Made by a program: the position numbers and the translations under genes. Under the pieces are notes generated by a model, which saw only the letters and a list, made by a program, of their open reading frames with translations, did not search any database and was not told the origin of the DNA. This document shows positions 11,606 to 19,841 of a stretch of DNA of 64,000 bases, one piece after another. The DNA comes from Syntrophus aciditrophicus SB (lineage in GTDB: Bacteria > Desulfobacterota > Syntrophia > Syntrophales > Syntrophaceae): assembly GCF_000013405.1 (NCBI RefSeq), contig NC_007759.1, positions 434,001 through 498,000 of the forward strand, written 5' to 3'. Numbering within the stretch: position 1 is the first letter of the stretch; each line of letters begins with the position of its first letter.

Positions 11606-11671
11606 TGCCTGTTGACGGCGAGACCTGTCCAGGGACTCAAATGTGCAAAATCGCAGAATATGAGAAAGGGC

Positions 11672-11701
11672 TTGACAAGAAACGGAAGATTTATTTACTC
11701 T
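11672..11701 (+). promoter_or_regulatory. Putative sigma-70-type promoter of the trp operon
   Basis: A perfect TTGACA at 11672-11677 is followed after 17-18 bases by a weak -10 (TTACTC or TACTCT, 11695-11701). It lies 30-60 bases upstream of the trp leader peptide, the place where transcription must begin for attenuation to work. The -10 match is poor, so the assignment rests on the -35 and the position. Confidence 0.5.
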
Positions 11702-11732
11702 TGATTCGCCTCTTGAAGAAAGGAAAGAGTCA

Positions 11733-11822
11733 GTGAATTACGCTTCATACATTGAAAGATGGGCAATGCTCTGGTGGTGGACCAACATTTTCTGGTCTGC
11801 CGACACGATTGCTCATCAGTAA
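11733..11822 (+). CDS. trpL: trp operon leader peptide
   Basis: A 29-codon reading frame from GTG 11733 to TAA 11822, preceded by AGGAAAG at 11721. Its product has Trp at residues 10, 14, 15, 16 and 21, i.e. five Trp in 29, including a WWW run at 11772-11780. A shorter version from ATG 11766 would still hold four Trp. Tryptophan scarcity would stall the ribosome on the triple Trp codons and change folding of the downstream RNA. It sits directly upstream of trpD, trpC and trpF. Short leader frames are usually missed by gene callers. Confidence 0.88.
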   Translation: MNYASYIERWAMLWWWTNIFWSADTIAHQ

Positions 11823-11878
11823 TCTACAAAAAACGTTCTGAGACCGTGGGCAGATTCTTCTCCACGGTCTTTTTTTTT
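11779..11878 (+). promoter_or_regulatory. trp attenuator: competing hairpins and terminator
   Basis: Three exclusive pairings can be read. Segment 1:2 pairs GGACCA (11779-11784, over Trp codons) with TGGTCT (11793-11798). The antiterminator pairs TCTGCC-GA-CACG (11796-11807, GA bulged) with CGTGGGCAGA (11845-11854). The terminator pairs AGACCGTGG (11841-11849) with CCACGGTCT (11862-11870) and runs into nine T (11870-11878). The antiterminator uses bases of both the 1:2 stem and the terminator stem, the classical trp attenuation layout: ribosome stalled at WWW frees segment 2 and allows read-through. Confidence 0.85.
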
Positions 11879-12004
11879 GCAAAAAAGGGGCGGTGAGGCG
11901 GTGAGTTTTTTTTCAGCCCCCTTTTTAAGAAAGGCTCAGCAGACGGCGTCGCGTGTGTCGTCGTGGTAAATTAACGTGTCATTTAAAACAGGAGAACCAA
12001 TCGG

Positions 12005-13351
12005 ATGATCACTGCACTTGTTCTTTTCAGAGTGGAAAAAGGAAAAATTCAGCGCCTGGCCAACCAGCTGGGTGCCATCGAGGAGGTCGTGGAGGTGCTT
12101 TCCATTACCGGGGAGTATGATCTCATGGCTAAGATCCAGGTCCAGGAATATGAAAGCCTTTCCGACATCGTGACAGATAAGATGCAGAACACGGAAGGTG
12201 TTTTGTCGACGAGGACAATGATGGCCTTCAAGACTTACAAATTCCATGAGCTGGCAACTGGGGCTCCCAATGGAATGATGATCCCGCAATCATTGGAAGA
12301 GACGGCCTTGGCCATCGAGACCGGCAAGAAGATGATCAAGCCGATTCTTGCCAAGCTGACGGAAAATTTTGATCTGGAAAAAAGTGAAATCAACAGTGTT
12401 ATCGACGCCATCAATGCCGGAGAGCTGTCTGACGTCCAGATTGCCGGTTTTCTGGTTGGCATGCTGAGCAAGGGACCAAGTATCAAGGAAGTTGCCTGCA
12501 TCGCCCAAGCCATGCGCCGAAACTGCGTTCCCATTCATGTTTCAATTAAATCGGAACTTACCGATACCTGTGGTACCGGAGGCGGTTCGGCCACCTTCAA
12601 TGTGAGCACGGCAAACGCCATCCTGACGGCCTCGGCTGGCGTTCCGGTTGCCAAGCACGGCAGCCGTTCCATCTCATCTTCCTCGGGAAGCGCGGATGTT
12701 CTGGAGGCCCTTGGTGTCAATATTGATCTCACACCAGAGCAGTCTGCCCGGCTGATTGAAGATATCGGGATCAGTTTCCTCTACGCGCCGAATTTTCATC
12801 CCGTCATGCTCAAGGTATTCGGGCCGGAAAACCAACTCGGCATCAAGACGATTTTTTTCACGATCATCGGTCCGCTGATTAATCCGCTGGGCGCCCGGAA
12901 CCATACCATCGGCGTCTATAAACCGGAACTGGTCAGCATGATGGCCAACGTCGTGGCGGAAATGGATTTCAACCACGTCATCGTGGCCCACGGCATTGAT
13001 GGTTTGGATGAAATATCGCTGATCGGGAAAACCTCGCTGGCGGAGATCAGAGGAAAAGAGATCAAATATTATGAAGTCACTCCTGATGATTTCGGCCTTA
13101 AACGCTGTACCCTGAACGATATTTCCGGCGGATCGCCGGAATTCAACGCCCAGATCACCCGGAACATATTTTCAGGCGCGGAGCGTGGACCGAGAAGAGA
13201 TTTCCTCGTCCTGAACAATGCGGCAACGCTTTATGTCAGCGGCAAGGTGTCGAGCATCCGGGAGGGAATCGACCTGTCCCGTTCTCTTATCGATTCGGGG
13301 GCCGCCTCGCGCAAACTCCAGGAATTCGTGGAAAAATCCCATAAGGTTTAA
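12005..13351 (+). CDS. trpD: RAM (Lrp/AsnC effector) domain fused to anthranilate phosphoribosyltransferase
   Basis: The 448-residue product has two parts. Residues ~1-85 match the stand-alone Lrp/AsnC ligand-binding (RAM) fold: ALVLFRVEKGK, then the hallmark ITGEYDLMAKIQV, then the closing strand TRTMMAFKTYKF; no helix-turn-helix is present. From ~110 on it is TrpD: DTCGTGGGSATFNVST (PRPP loop), AKHGSRSISSSSGSADVLEALG, HGIDGLDEIS and VLNNAATLYVSGK. In the KHGNR/SSKSG region the family Asn and Lys are Ser here. It joins anthranilate to PRPP. ATG 12005 has AGGAG upstream, and no internal Shine-Dalgarno suggests a separate TrpD start. It follows the Trp attenuator and precedes trpC by 12 bases. 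Confidence 0.88.
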   Translation: MITALVLFRVEKGKIQRLANQLGAIEEVVEVLSITGEYDLMAKIQVQEYESLSDIVTDKMQNTEGVLSTRTMMAFKTYKFHELATGAPNGMMIPQSLEETALAIETGKKMIKPILAKLTENFDLEKSEINSVIDAINAGELSDVQIAGFLVGMLSKGPSIKEVACIAQAMRRNCVPIHVSIKSELTDTCGTGGGSATFNVSTANAILTASAGVPVAKHGSRSISSSSGSADVLEALGVNIDLTPEQSARLIEDIGISFLYAPNFHPVMLKVFGPENQLGIKTIFFTIIGPLINPLGARNHTIGVYKPELVSMMANVVAEMDFNHVIVAHGIDGLDEISLIGKTSLAEIRGKEIKYYEVTPDDFGLKRCTLNDISGGSPEFNAQITRNIFSGAERGPRRDFLVLNNAATLYVSGKVSSIREGIDLSRSLIDSGAASRKLQEFVEKSHKV

Positions 13352-13363
13352 TAGGGTGCGGTC

Positions 13364-14101
13364 ATGTTGAAAAAAGATGCTTCTGCGGGACAGGGACTAA
13401 GACTGTCTCTGTCCGCATCCATCCGGAAAAGACAAAGTGAGAAGTACTTTCCCGTGATCTCCGAGGTCAAGGTGAGATCGGACAAGGAAGGTGATCTGCT
13501 GCGTGGCCGTGACCCCGTGGCGCTCGCGCAGGAAATGGCGCGGTGTCCTGTTGCGGGAATCAGTGTTGTCACTGAATCGGAGCACTTCGGAGGGCACATG
13601 GGCCTGTTGAGTGCAGTCGCCGCCGCCGTGGACATTCCCGTCCTCCACAAGGATTTCATCAGGAACGAGCGGCAGATCGAAGAATCGGCCGACTGCGGCG
13701 CTTCGGCGATCTTAATCATTACCGCCCTGCTGGAAACGAAGCAGATGGAACGGCTGATTGAAAAGGCAATGTGCTGCGGCCTGGAGACCCTGGTTGAGGC
13801 GCATAGTCTTGCAGAGATAAAAAAAGTGGAAGACCTTTCGTTTGATCTGATGGGAATCAATAACCGGGACATTACCGTCTTCGAGTTGGATGACAACGAT
13901 GTGAGCAGGACGGAGGAGCTTGCCGGCTTCTGTAAAGGCTCGCGTATCCTGATCAGTGAAAGCTCGATCAGCTCTGCGGTGGAAGCCCGGCGTGCCGGGA
14001 AAGGCGGCGCCGATGCCGTGCTGGTTGGTACGGCTGTTTTGAAAGCGGCCAGCGTGAGAAATTTTCTGGATGAACTGACGTCTGTCGGATGGCCGCCATG
14101 A
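13364..14101 (+). CDS. trpC: Indole-3-glycerol-phosphate synthase
   Basis: A TIM-barrel protein of 245 residues converting CdRP to indole-3-glycerol phosphate. Active-site landmarks can be seen in order: SEVKVRSDKEG (phosphate/substrate loop; differs from the usual KxxSPSKG), LHKDFI with the catalytic Lys, VEAHSLAEI with the catalytic Glu, GINNRD with the substrate Asn, and SESSI near the phosphate. It lies 12 bases after trpD, and its stop overlaps the trpF start in an ATGA. The first barrel motif is somewhat diverged, but the other catalytic positions are intact, so an active enzyme is expected. Confidence 0.9.
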   Translation: MLKKDASAGQGLRLSLSASIRKRQSEKYFPVISEVKVRSDKEGDLLRGRDPVALAQEMARCPVAGISVVTESEHFGGHMGLLSAVAAAVDIPVLHKDFIRNERQIEESADCGASAILIITALLETKQMERLIEKAMCCGLETLVEAHSLAEIKKVEDLSFDLMGINNRDITVFELDDNDVSRTEELAGFCKGSRILISESSISSAVEARRAGKGGADAVLVGTAVLKAASVRNFLDELTSVGWPP

Positions 14102-14838
14102 CACGGATCAAGATCTGCGGCATTATAACCGGAGAGGACATCCGCATCTGTGTCGCAGCAGGCGTCGATGCACTGGGATTTGTCGTGGAGTATCCCATCG
14201 ATGTGCCGTGGAATCTCGACCGGCACACTGCCGGAGAACTGATCCGCTGCGTTCCGCCTTTTGTTTCGCGGGTCATTGTGGTCGGGGACGTTCCCGACGT
14301 GGTCGTCGAATTGACGGAGATTCTGAGGCCGCACGTCGTTCAACTGCACGGAAATGAACCTCTTTCGGTGACGGCAACCCTCGTTGCGGCTATCCACAAA
14401 CTTGGGGCACAGGTGATCAAGCCCCTTCGGTTTTCAGTGGAAACGGGGAAGTTCCGGTCTTCGTGTGAAGACCCAATTGATGCGGCGAGGCTGATCGAGG
14501 ATGCCAAGGTGGATGCCCTGCTGCTGGACTCGGTCAGTGATTCCCGGCCGGCGGGAACCGGCCGGAGCATTGACTGGGGGCTTGCACGGAGGATACGCGA
14601 CAAAGTGCGACTACCCGTCATCCTTGCCGGTGGCCTGGATGCGGGCAATATCGGCAAGGCCATAGAGGCTGTTAATCCCTATGGCGTCGATGTGATCAGC
14701 GGTGTTGAAAACCAGGAGGAAAGAAAAAAAGACCCTCAAAAGGTAAGGGCATTTGTTAAAGCGGTTGTGGATGCACAGCCCGTTCTCTCCTCAACATTTA
14801 ATGAGAACTGTTACGAAAATTTCACTCAAAAAAGGTGA
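14098..14838 (+). CDS. trpF: Phosphoribosylanthranilate isomerase
   Basis: Start placed at ATG 14098, which overlaps the trpC stop (ATGA) and gives the typical opening MTRIKICGI with the catalytic Cys. Later motifs are VVQLHGNE, LLLDSVSDSRPAGTGRSIDW with the catalytic Asp, and LAGGLDAGNI/GVDVISGVE for phosphate binding. The enzyme catalyses the Amadori rearrangement of PRA to CdRP. It is the last gene of this trp run; trpE, trpG, trpB and trpA are not in the window. An inverted repeat AAGGTGA/TCACCTT (14832-14838 with 14852-14858) spans the stop but lacks a T run. Confidence 0.9.
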   Translation: MTRIKICGIITGEDIRICVAAGVDALGFVVEYPIDVPWNLDRHTAGELIRCVPPFVSRVIVVGDVPDVVVELTEILRPHVVQLHGNEPLSVTATLVAAIHKLGAQVIKPLRFSVETGKFRSSCEDPIDAARLIEDAKVDALLLDSVSDSRPAGTGRSIDWGLARRIRDKVRLPVILAGGLDAGNIGKAIEAVNPYGVDVISGVENQEERKKDPQKVRAFVKAVVDAQPVLSSTFNENCYENFTQKR

Positions 14839-17597: not shown

Positions 17598-17945
17598 AAG
17601 AGACAATCCCTCAGGGACCTTGATCTGTGTAGTTATCGCTATTCCCTCAACTGCACTTCCCTTTTACATTCTAACTTCAAACATTCATAACTAACTGTTC
17701 GTAAAGCTTATTTACTACAGAATACTGACATATAGTGTTATAAATTCGCCACTAATTCAGCATTGTATTCCTCGCCATTACTGTTATGAGTGCCGCCTTA
17801 AATCATGAAACATTCTTTTCTTGACCAACGGATATGAGCTAAACGCCGGTATCTGAGAAAGACGGTCTTGTAACCGGGGGGTGGAGCTTTGCCCCTTAAC
17901 ACTGAAGTTTCACGAAAACAATCATTCAAGAGCTGGGAATCAAAG
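17598..17945 (+). other. Intergenic region upstream of the CoA transferase-GNAT gene
   Basis: About 350 bases, AT-rich, with no gene found. The frame of the next CDS is open back to TTG 17889, but ATG 17946 is the more likely start. No clear promoter or operator was found. Confidence 0.5.
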
Positions 17946-19841
17946 ATGAACTGCAGAAACAAGAACCATTTCCTTGAAATGTGGAAAGCGACTTATTCCG
18001 AAAAGTTCGCTGACGAAGTGGAAATATTCAGCAAAATTCGCCGGGGGGATCGCATTTTCGTCTCTTCCGGCTGCGGAGAGCCCCAGTATCTGGTCAAGTC
18101 ACTGGTTAAATACGTGGAATCCAACCCCAAGGCCATCTTCGACACGGAAATCATCCAGATTTATTCCTTTGGGGTCACACCTTACAGCGACCCGAAATTC
18201 CAGTCCAATTTCCGCCACAACACTTTTTTCATCGGCGACAACACCAGAACATCCGTAAACGATGGCACTTCCGATTATACCCCCATCTCCATGTCCAACG
18301 TTCCGACACTCCTGCGGAGCGGCTTCGTCAGAATCGATATTGCCCTGATCCAGACCTCTCTCCCGGATGAGAATGGTTTCCTCAGCCTGGGCGTGAGTGT
18401 CGATATGGTCAAAGCGGCCACGGAAAAAGCGTCCCTGGTTATCGCTCAGGTCAATACAAATATGCCGTATACTCACGGAGACGGATTCATCCATATTTCG
18501 GATGTCGATTATCTCATTCCCCACGATGAGCCCGTTCTGGAGTTACAGGGCTCCATTTCCAGCAAGACGGCGCAAAAGATAGGCAATTATGTCTCCCGTC
18601 TTATTCAGGATGGCGATACGATTCAAGTAGGCTTCGGAATTCTGCCTAATGAAGCCGTGGCTCATCTCAACAATAAAAAACATCTGGGAGTTCACACCTC
18701 TCTCCTAAGCGACGGCCTCATCAACCTGATCAAGCTCGGCGTGATTGACAATTCCAGGAAAAAACTGAATCGAGGCAAGACAATCGCTTCATTCTGCATG
18801 GGATCAAGAGAGGCCTACAAATACATCCATGACAATCATTCCATCTGTTTTCGAACTATTGACTATACGAACGATCCTCTTGTCATCGCTCAGGAGGACA
18901 ATATGGTGGCCATCAACAGTGCCCTGGAAATCGACCTGACCGGACAGGCCACCTCGGAGTCCATCGGCGGACGGTTTTACAGCGGCGTCGGCGCTCATCA
19001 GGATTTCATGCGCGGTGCGGCCATGGCTCGCAATGGGAAGACTGTCTTGGCCCTGCAGTCAACTGCCATGGGCGGCAAGCTCTCCCGCATCGTTCCCACC
19101 CTGTCTGAATCGGCCGGGGTTACGCTGAATCGAAGCGATGTCCGTTACGTCATTACGGAATACGGTATTGCCTATCTTCACGGCAAAACGATCCGTGAGA
19201 GGGTCATGGAGCTCATTGCTATCGCGCACCCGAAATTTCGTCCGTGGCTGCTGGAAGAAGCGAAGAAACGCGGACTCATTTACCGTGATCAGACCTTCAA
19301 CCACGGGCAAAAGGGAAAGTATCCGGAACATCTTGAAACACACTGGACAACAAATTCGGGAATGAGTGTCTTTTTCCGCCCCGTTAAAGTTACGGATGAG
19401 CCTCTTTTCAGAGATTTTATTCATGCATTGTCCGACACCAGTCTTTATCTCCGGTTCTTTTCAAAGCGTTTCGACATGCCTCACGAAAGGATACAGAGCA
19501 TGATTACGACGGATTATACCAGGCAAATGGCCATCTGCGCCGTAGTTCCGCTGGACAGGAAAGAAATGATCGTGGGTGTGGGTCGTTACCAGATCGATGA
19601 CAGCACTTACTGGGCCGATATCGCATTCGCTGTCCGCGATGATTACCAGAGAAGAGGCATTTGCTCGGCGTTGCTTTCCTACATGACCCATCACGCAAAG
19701 AAGAAGGGGCTTCTTGGCTTTACCGCCGCGGTACTGATGGAAAACGAGCCGATGCTTAAAACATTCGCCAAAGGAGGCTTTGATATCTCAGGAAAATTGG
19801 AATTCGGATTCTATAATTTAAAACTTGCCTTCCGGAATTGA
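17946..19841 (+). CDS. Acetyl-CoA hydrolase/transferase fused to GNAT acetyltransferase
   Basis: Residues ~1-455 are a family I (Cat1/ACH-type) CoA transferase: GFGILPNEAVAHL (CoA-binding glycine loop), the segment SALEIDLTGQATSESIGG with its conserved Glu, GVGAHQDFMRGA, and VITEYGIAYLHGKTIRERV. Residues ~470-630 are a GNAT domain (FFRPVKVTDEPLFRDF ... VRDDYQRRGICSALLSYM, the latter being the acetyl-CoA pyrophosphate loop). The fusion suggests either acyl transfer to a protein lysine or regulation of the transferase by acetyl-CoA. ATG 17946 is chosen over the upstream TTG because the homologous N terminus starts shortly after it. Upstream lies a PAS-LuxR regulator, downstream small DUF2080-like genes and another CoA transferase. 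Confidence 0.85.
   Translation: MNCRNKNHFLEMWKATYSEKFADEVEIFSKIRRGDRIFVSSGCGEPQYLVKSLVKYVESNPKAIFDTEIIQIYSFGVTPYSDPKFQSNFRHNTFFIGDNTRTSVNDGTSDYTPISMSNVPTLLRSGFVRIDIALIQTSLPDENGFLSLGVSVDMVKAATEKASLVIAQVNTNMPYTHGDGFIHISDVDYLIPHDEPVLELQGSISSKTAQKIGNYVSRLIQDGDTIQVGFGILPNEAVAHLNNKKHLGVHTSLLSDGLINLIKLGVIDNSRKKLNRGKTIASFCMGSREAYKYIHDNHSICFRTIDYTNDPLVIAQEDNMVAINSALEIDLTGQATSESIGGRFYSGVGAHQDFMRGAAMARNGKTVLALQSTAMGGKLSRIVPTLSESAGVTLNRSDVRYVITEYGIAYLHGKTIRERVMELIAIAHPKFRPWLLEEAKKRGLIYRDQTFNHGQKGKYPEHLETHWTTNSGMSVFFRPVKVTDEPLFRDFIHALSDTSLYLRFFSKRFDMPHERIQSMITTDYTRQMAICAVVPLDRKEMIVGVGRYQIDDSTYWADIAFAVRDDYQRRGICSALLSYMTHHAKKKGLLGFTAAVLMENEPMLKTFAKGGFDISGKLEFGFYNLKLAFRN

Follow-up and report, generated by a model that had tools for sequence, protein, structure and literature searches.

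Two questions are raised by positions 11733-11878 of the window (the whole 64,000-nucleotide stretch of Syntrophus aciditrophicus SB DNA analysed here): whether they form a tryptophan-sensing attenuator and of which genes, and whether its control ends at a single stop signal, as in the textbook trp attenuator with its one terminator. In the E. coli trp attenuator a Trp-rich leader peptide is combined with four RNA strands (1-4), an antiterminator that overlaps both of the other hairpins, and a terminator followed by a U run. The window leader has the same parts as this proteobacterial system (RF00513, Trp_leader), and differs from it in a matching second terminator-like hairpin and in a gene set of trpD-C-F only.

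The leader peptide ORF (MNYASYIERWAMLWWWTNIFWSADTIAHQ) was located on the plus strand at 11733-11822, from GTG at 11733 to TAA at 11820-11822. It has 29 codons, of which codons 10, 14, 15, 16 and 21 encode Trp (WWW at 11772-11780), and it is a short ORF that looks translated and places neighbouring Trp codons 5' of trp biosynthesis genes. A purine-rich, Shine-Dalgarno-like stretch (GAAAGGAAAGAG, read from the sequence) precedes it at 11718-11729 (+). A candidate promoter was picked out by eye at 11672-11699 (+), consisting of TTGACA at 11672-11677, a 16-nt spacer and a weak -10 element, TTTACT, at 11694-11699; TTGACA was also found within 59 bases 5' of the leaders of loci L003, L004, L005, L008, L009, L013 and L014. 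A consensus scan reported neither a terminator nor a plus-strand promoter at the leader region. Trp is scarce in the window (19 of 4172 residues over nine window ORFs), and the probability of finding at least five Trp among 28 residues is therefore P = 1.8e-7. Among 997 short ORFs of the window (10-60 aa, six frames), the leader ORF alone contained WWW. In genome G036, which belongs to the same genus, an identical leader peptide was found on contig C2. Folding of 11733-11890 was 4.6 SD below that of dinucleotide shuffles, none of 200 shuffles being as good, and on the strength of this and the Trp enrichment a chance origin was rejected.

Local folding on the plus strand gave the arrangement expected of an attenuator. 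Strand 1 (11758-11784) holds the WWW codons and strand 2 (11793-11817) can pair with strand 1 or with strand 3. The 1:2 region folded with pairs over 11758-11817 at -29.8 kcal/mol and the 2:3 segment with pairs over 11794-11856 at -18.8 kcal/mol. Strand 3 (11836-11857), placed like strand 2 by duplex and local fold, can pair with strand 2 as the antiterminator or with strand 4 (11859-11878, the 3' arm of terminator 1 plus its U run), so that antiterminator and terminator share strand 3. Terminator 1 (3:4, 11840-11878) has its stem at 11840-11871 and nine T at 11870-11878; its local fold gave -18.1 kcal/mol, and it has counterparts in relatives. The original prediction had described a leader of 29 codons, five of them for Trp, and overlapping hairpins, the last a terminator with nine T, all of which the ORF and the local folds bore out. 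Its 10-bp antiterminator with a GA bulge lies inside the best 2:3 duplex (8 + 4 pairs, two of them G.U); the local fold of 2:3 differed somewhat from that duplex in its inner arrangement and had identical outer arms.

We estimate at about 0.9 the probability that window positions 11733-11878 govern RAM-trpD, trpC and trpF as a ribosome-mediated trp attenuator. The steps of stalling and termination are drawn from the anatomy, its conservation and the way known trp attenuators work. With ample charged tRNA-Trp, the ribosome would clear the WWW codons and keep strand 2 from strand 3; with strand 2 unavailable, 3:4 would form and transcription would end at terminator 1. In Trp shortage the ribosome would stall at WWW over strand 1, and 2:3 would form in place of terminator 1.

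The first gene downstream (12005-13351, +) encodes a RAM (Lrp/AsnC ligand-binding) domain fused to TrpD (Pfam PF01037, PF02885 and PF00591; NCBIfam TIGR01245 above its cut-off). It is followed on the same strand by trpC (13364-14101, PF00218) and trpF (14089-14838, PF00697); trpE and trpG are absent from this operon. A trpE-G-D-C-F-B-A operon followed by a DAHP synthase gene is present elsewhere in the genome (one contig, 3,179,300 bases) with its own WWW leader, and RAM-trpD-C-F is therefore a second, partial trp set. The trp attenuator reading of the original prediction was thus supported, and it had missed that the regulated genes are this second, RAM-fused set. All 11 aligned fusion proteins differed from the canonical TrpD of this genome by GTGGD to GTGGG and KHGN to KHGS, and by RR to EN or ES in GP..QLG, motifs that we take to belong to the active site. 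Because of these changes the anthranilate phosphoribosyltransferase activity of RAM-TrpD is uncertain, although the NCBIfam trpD cut-off was passed. The accompanying TrpC and TrpF passed Pfam and fell below the cut-off of every NCBIfam model that they matched (best 203 vs. 284 and 147.3 vs. 215 bits). The operon may be an altered branch, or one that uses anthranilate. On a fusion of RAM to TrpD, a literature search returned nothing on point. Another fusion in the window, at 17889-19841, joins an acetyl-CoA hydrolase/transferase to a GNAT acetyltransferase domain.

Few genomes have the RAM-TrpD fusion. With the genome of the window counted, at least 10 out of 155 in the class and at least 3 out of 395 in the phylum sample had it at E ≤ 1e-95, counts that are lower bounds because split genes fall under the E cut; in G048, RAM-TrpD fragments were found at 86-92% identity. 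In seven loci (L003, L004, L005, L008, L009, L014 and L016) trpB and trpA stand ahead of RAM-trpD; the RAM-TrpD proteins of these loci were 79-84% identical to that of the window, and trpC/trpF 58-73% where scored. Eight related RAM-trpD loci had a WWW leader with a downstream terminator. Leader and T run were located 5' of trpB in six of them (L003, L004, L005, L008, L009 and L014) and 5' of RAM-trpD in L007 and L013, as in the window. The filters found no WWW leader in six RAM-trpD loci (L006, L010, L011, L012, L016 and L018). L015 ends at a contig edge and L017 is without the RAM part. L018, in which the RAM part is present and is followed by a change of frame in translation, and L017 are MAG contigs titled Planctomycetaceae and Armatimonadetes; they hold 58% identical relatives, which could reflect either transfer or MAG contamination.

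The original prediction had called the attenuator complete. Its sensing switch stood, and its extent did not, since a second terminator-like hairpin (strands 5 and 6; 11881-11926, +) lies beyond the point at which that description ended. The stem ends in CCCCCTTTTT, and its folding energies were -16.1 and -16.8 kcal/mol. Counterparts of this hairpin were found in L003, L004 and L005 and in trpE leaders. Thus, of the RAM-type leaders, those of the window, L003, L004 and L005 carry a second hairpin that ends in T; in L007 and L013 the hairpin at the second position has no T run, and in L008, L009 and L014 the second hairpin is absent. Two terminator-like hairpins likewise come after the WWW leader of the trpE operon in the same genome.

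The trpE leaders of the order were therefore surveyed on a larger scale. From 113 trpE matches, seven were left out (G119, G136 twice, G008, G047, G045 and G127:C78), six for want of a gene start and the seventh, G136:C128, inadvertently, and 106 regions remained. A region passed the leader filter if it had WW or at least three Trp, plus at least one terminator. Ninety-nine of 106 upstream regions passed, with WWW in 94 of the 99; in one of the regions (L172) the ORF chosen by the script was a chance one, and TGGTGGTGG is located further downstream. Seven regions lacked a leader plus terminator, four of them being ended by contig edges (L089, L152, L156 and L169). Hairpin 2 was present in 98 of the 99 leaders, 90 by script as two clean terminators and 8 by eye, and was absent from L092 alone. 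A run of at least four T followed hairpin 1 in 89/90 leaders and hairpin 2 in 89/98. Six of the nine hairpins 2 without a four-T run belong to genus g15 (L113, L114, L141, L145, L146 and L154), in which the hairpin is kept, the T run is broken and the stem is longer in some. For the phylum, in which 276 genomes matched (the order accounting for some), 75 trpE upstream regions were examined. Twenty-nine passed the filter, several of which look like chance hits (e.g., L193, L223, L229 and L242), and 46 had no such leader. Outside the order, both one- and two-terminator trp leaders occur in the phylum. The Trp codons and pairings, whose lack of conservation in close relatives the original prediction had named as its refutation, were conserved at the eight RAM loci and in 99 of 106 trpE regions, and cognate pairings were the stronger ones in the swap comparison given below.

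We compared these leaders with known RNA families and regulatory systems. RF00513 gave no match in the window at gathering (41 bits) and none at 11650-12010 up to E = 1; the genome's own trpE leader gave a weak sense-strand match (22.6 bits vs. the 41 needed, E 0.044). Among Rfam matches at E ≤ 1 in the window leader, nothing was relevant. A known Rfam family as the identity of these leaders was rejected, none reaching its gathering threshold across the window, the nine trpE leader loci and the eight RAM loci searched, except for one tRNA in L013. The trpB motif RF04312 was rejected as well, with 26.6 bits in L052 vs. a gathering threshold of 59 and no match at gathering in the eight RAM loci; this motif is described from Firmicutes and Fusobacteria (PMC11109978). 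The rimP-leader of several Gammaproteobacteria is described as having two terminators in tandem, with a potential antiterminator at the first; in contrast to the leaders studied here, the motifs of its two terminators are inverse with no shared core, and the description mentions no Trp leader peptide (PMC2965389). Four HMGL-family loci and one hisG locus of the same genome gave no leader by a crude filter. At 1429-1459 of another locus of this genome (L262), a single strong hairpin with A/T tails (AAAGGCCATGGGC...GCTCATGGCCTTT) was observed just 5' of a leuA-like gene. In his-type attenuators, strands A-F pair alternately along a six-strand chain and the last hairpin alone is known as a terminator, whereas the order leaders mostly have U runs on both 3:4 (89/90) and 5:6 (89/98). 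The ermK attenuator of Bacillus licheniformis, which works by ribosome stalling and has more than one leader termination site, would resemble the window leader in these two respects and differs in sensing an antibiotic and in belonging to the Firmicutes. A literature search, with most subscription journals outside its scope, met no description of two coupled terminators behind a Trp leader. Earlier comparative studies of attenuators in proteobacteria could already mention such leaders.

How the second hairpin might be tied to Trp sensing is suggested by strand 4, for which pairing with strand 5 is an option that competes with both 3:4 and 5:6. In the window this proposed second antiterminator spans 11856-11901 (+; local fold -14.3 kcal/mol), and the successive energies are balanced (2:3 -18.8, 3:4 -18.1, 4:5 -14.3 and 5:6 -16.8 kcal/mol). 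We tentatively propose, at odds that we put just short of even, a six-strand relay in which one Trp leader drives two terminators through the mutually exclusive pairings 1:2/2:3/3:4/4:5/5:6. Under starvation, 2:3 would leave strand 4 free to capture strand 5 before strand 6 is made, and terminator 2 would be disarmed. Under Trp-replete conditions 3:4 would form, and polymerase leaking past terminator 1 would meet terminator 2. The 3' arm of terminator 1 would in this way double as the antiterminator of terminator 2, a double lock that appears to be kept in nearly all order trpE leaders examined, to recur in other orders of the phylum and to have been reused at the RAM-trpD operon.

To evaluate 4:5, cognate pairings were compared with between-family swapped pairings in 105 leaders divided into 30 groups (one per family, except that each of the four RAM leaders, although related, formed a group of its own). 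All 11 phylum rows with two terminators were used, including L237, which has no clear Trp leader; L220, whose second hairpin was seen by eye, was not used. The median z of cognate vs. swapped pairings was -2.9 for 1:2, -8.2 for 2:3, -11.5 for 3:4, -5.6 for 4:5 and -11.0 for 5:6, and the control pairing 2:5 had no cognate advantage (z +2.2). Without the RAM leaders the z for 4:5 was -3.5, and -2.8 after the A/U tails were stripped (median p 0.0045). Inside the order alone the 4:5 signal was weak (median p 0.054 with tails and 0.033 without); in the other orders plus RAM leaders z was -4.6, or -2.7 when stripped. At least eight 4:5 pairs could form in the 4-5 segment of 104/105 leaders, with a median shuffle z of -3.3. 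The mean energy of this segment was -16.7 kcal/mol vs. -17.3 kcal/mol for terminator 2, and in 40 of the 105 its stability equalled or exceeded that of terminator 2. The cognate strand 5 paired with strand 4 better than shuffled strand 5 by 2 SD in 89/90 order leaders. As a further control, the 5' arms of 68 unrelated terminator-like hairpins gave a mean of -9.9 vs. -17.1 for the cognates, of which, however, only 51/105 were below the control's 5th percentile. The 4:5 duplex of the window is among the weakest (-11.1 vs. the mean of -17.1).

The stem cores of terminators 1 and 2 match within one leader, and this likeness might have a simpler origin. One terminator may be derived from the other and the two kept alike by recombination, slippage or mutation bias, with 4:5 as a by-product; we regard this as rather unlikely. 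If terminator 2 were merely a copy of terminator 1, a pairing of strand 3 with strand 6 no weaker than that of 4 with 5 would be expected, and overall this is what is seen: 4:5 was stronger than 3:6 by more than 0.5 kcal/mol in 8/30 groups and weaker in 14/30 (Wilcoxon p 0.26), and with tails stripped the cognate advantages were similar (median z -4.1 for 4:5 and -3.9 for 3:6). Site by site, in a comparison in which a few rows are out of register (L073, L110 and L138), 4:5 was better kept than 3:6 at core length 6 in 20 leaders vs. 4, the sign test over groups being not significant (10 vs. 4, p 0.18); the group counts were 13 vs. 10 at length 7 and 11 vs. 10 at length 8. Other details fit copying less well. 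In the order leaders the two terminators differ outside the core (GTGGAG vs. GTGA), and the differences between terminators 1 and 2 in L217 and L241 are accommodated as G.U in 4:5 but are mismatches in 3:6, whereas L225 and L233 go in the opposite direction, against 4:5. In L073, known from a single assembly, terminator 1 is without a U run and terminator 2 has one; strand 5 is fully paired with strand 4 despite an A.C mismatch in 5:6, and 4:5 predominates in the fold of the 4-6 stretch, being kept at the expense of 5:6. Here terminator 1 has apparently been reduced to a relay hairpin, which would leave the work to terminator 2, and L073 offers a natural experiment for the relay.

The second terminator could also be an independent fail-safe that starvation does not relieve and that lowers the expression ceiling. 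In 89 of the 98 order leaders that have hairpin 2 it is followed by at least four T, and its mean energy is -17.3 kcal/mol; both agree with such a role, as does the fact that some leaders in other families of the phylum have terminator 1 alone, which makes the second terminator optional. A fail-safe of this kind would cap the operon during starvation, however. Nothing would then hold its stem sequence in place, yet in leaders of different families its core corresponds to that of terminator 1 in the same leader; we consider this role unlikely. That hairpin 2 is mainly a 5' UTR hairpin serving mRNA stability or start-site exposure, and not a terminator, strikes us as improbable. It lies shortly 5' of the gene start in trpE leaders, and 9/98 leaders keep the hairpin with a broken U run and, in some, a longer stem; but the U run is the rule (89/98), and the match to the stem of terminator 1 would be left unexplained. 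The six-strand relay would account both for the persistence of a second terminator that does not shut off the operon in starvation and for a stem that tracks that of terminator 1. For peTrpL of Sinorhizobium meliloti, action in trans is reported (PMC7298713). A similar additional action of the leader peptide or of the short leader RNA seems very improbable here: the peptides are alike beyond the Trp run, with SA a few residues after WWW in the window, L003, L004, L005, L007 and L013, but the part of the peptide behind WWW is encoded by strand 2, itself constrained by RNA pairing.

The matching second stop signal in relatives may mean that one sensor controls two stop signals in a chain. About a hundred natural leader variants are now available as a testbed for how a pairing choice is handed from one terminator to the next. 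If the relay is true, it shows a route to tighter shut-off without loss of induction. In S. aciditrophicus, the probable Trp-sensing switch is now placed on a trpD-C-F set whose TrpD has a regulatory ligand-binding domain and altered motifs in what is presumably its active site.
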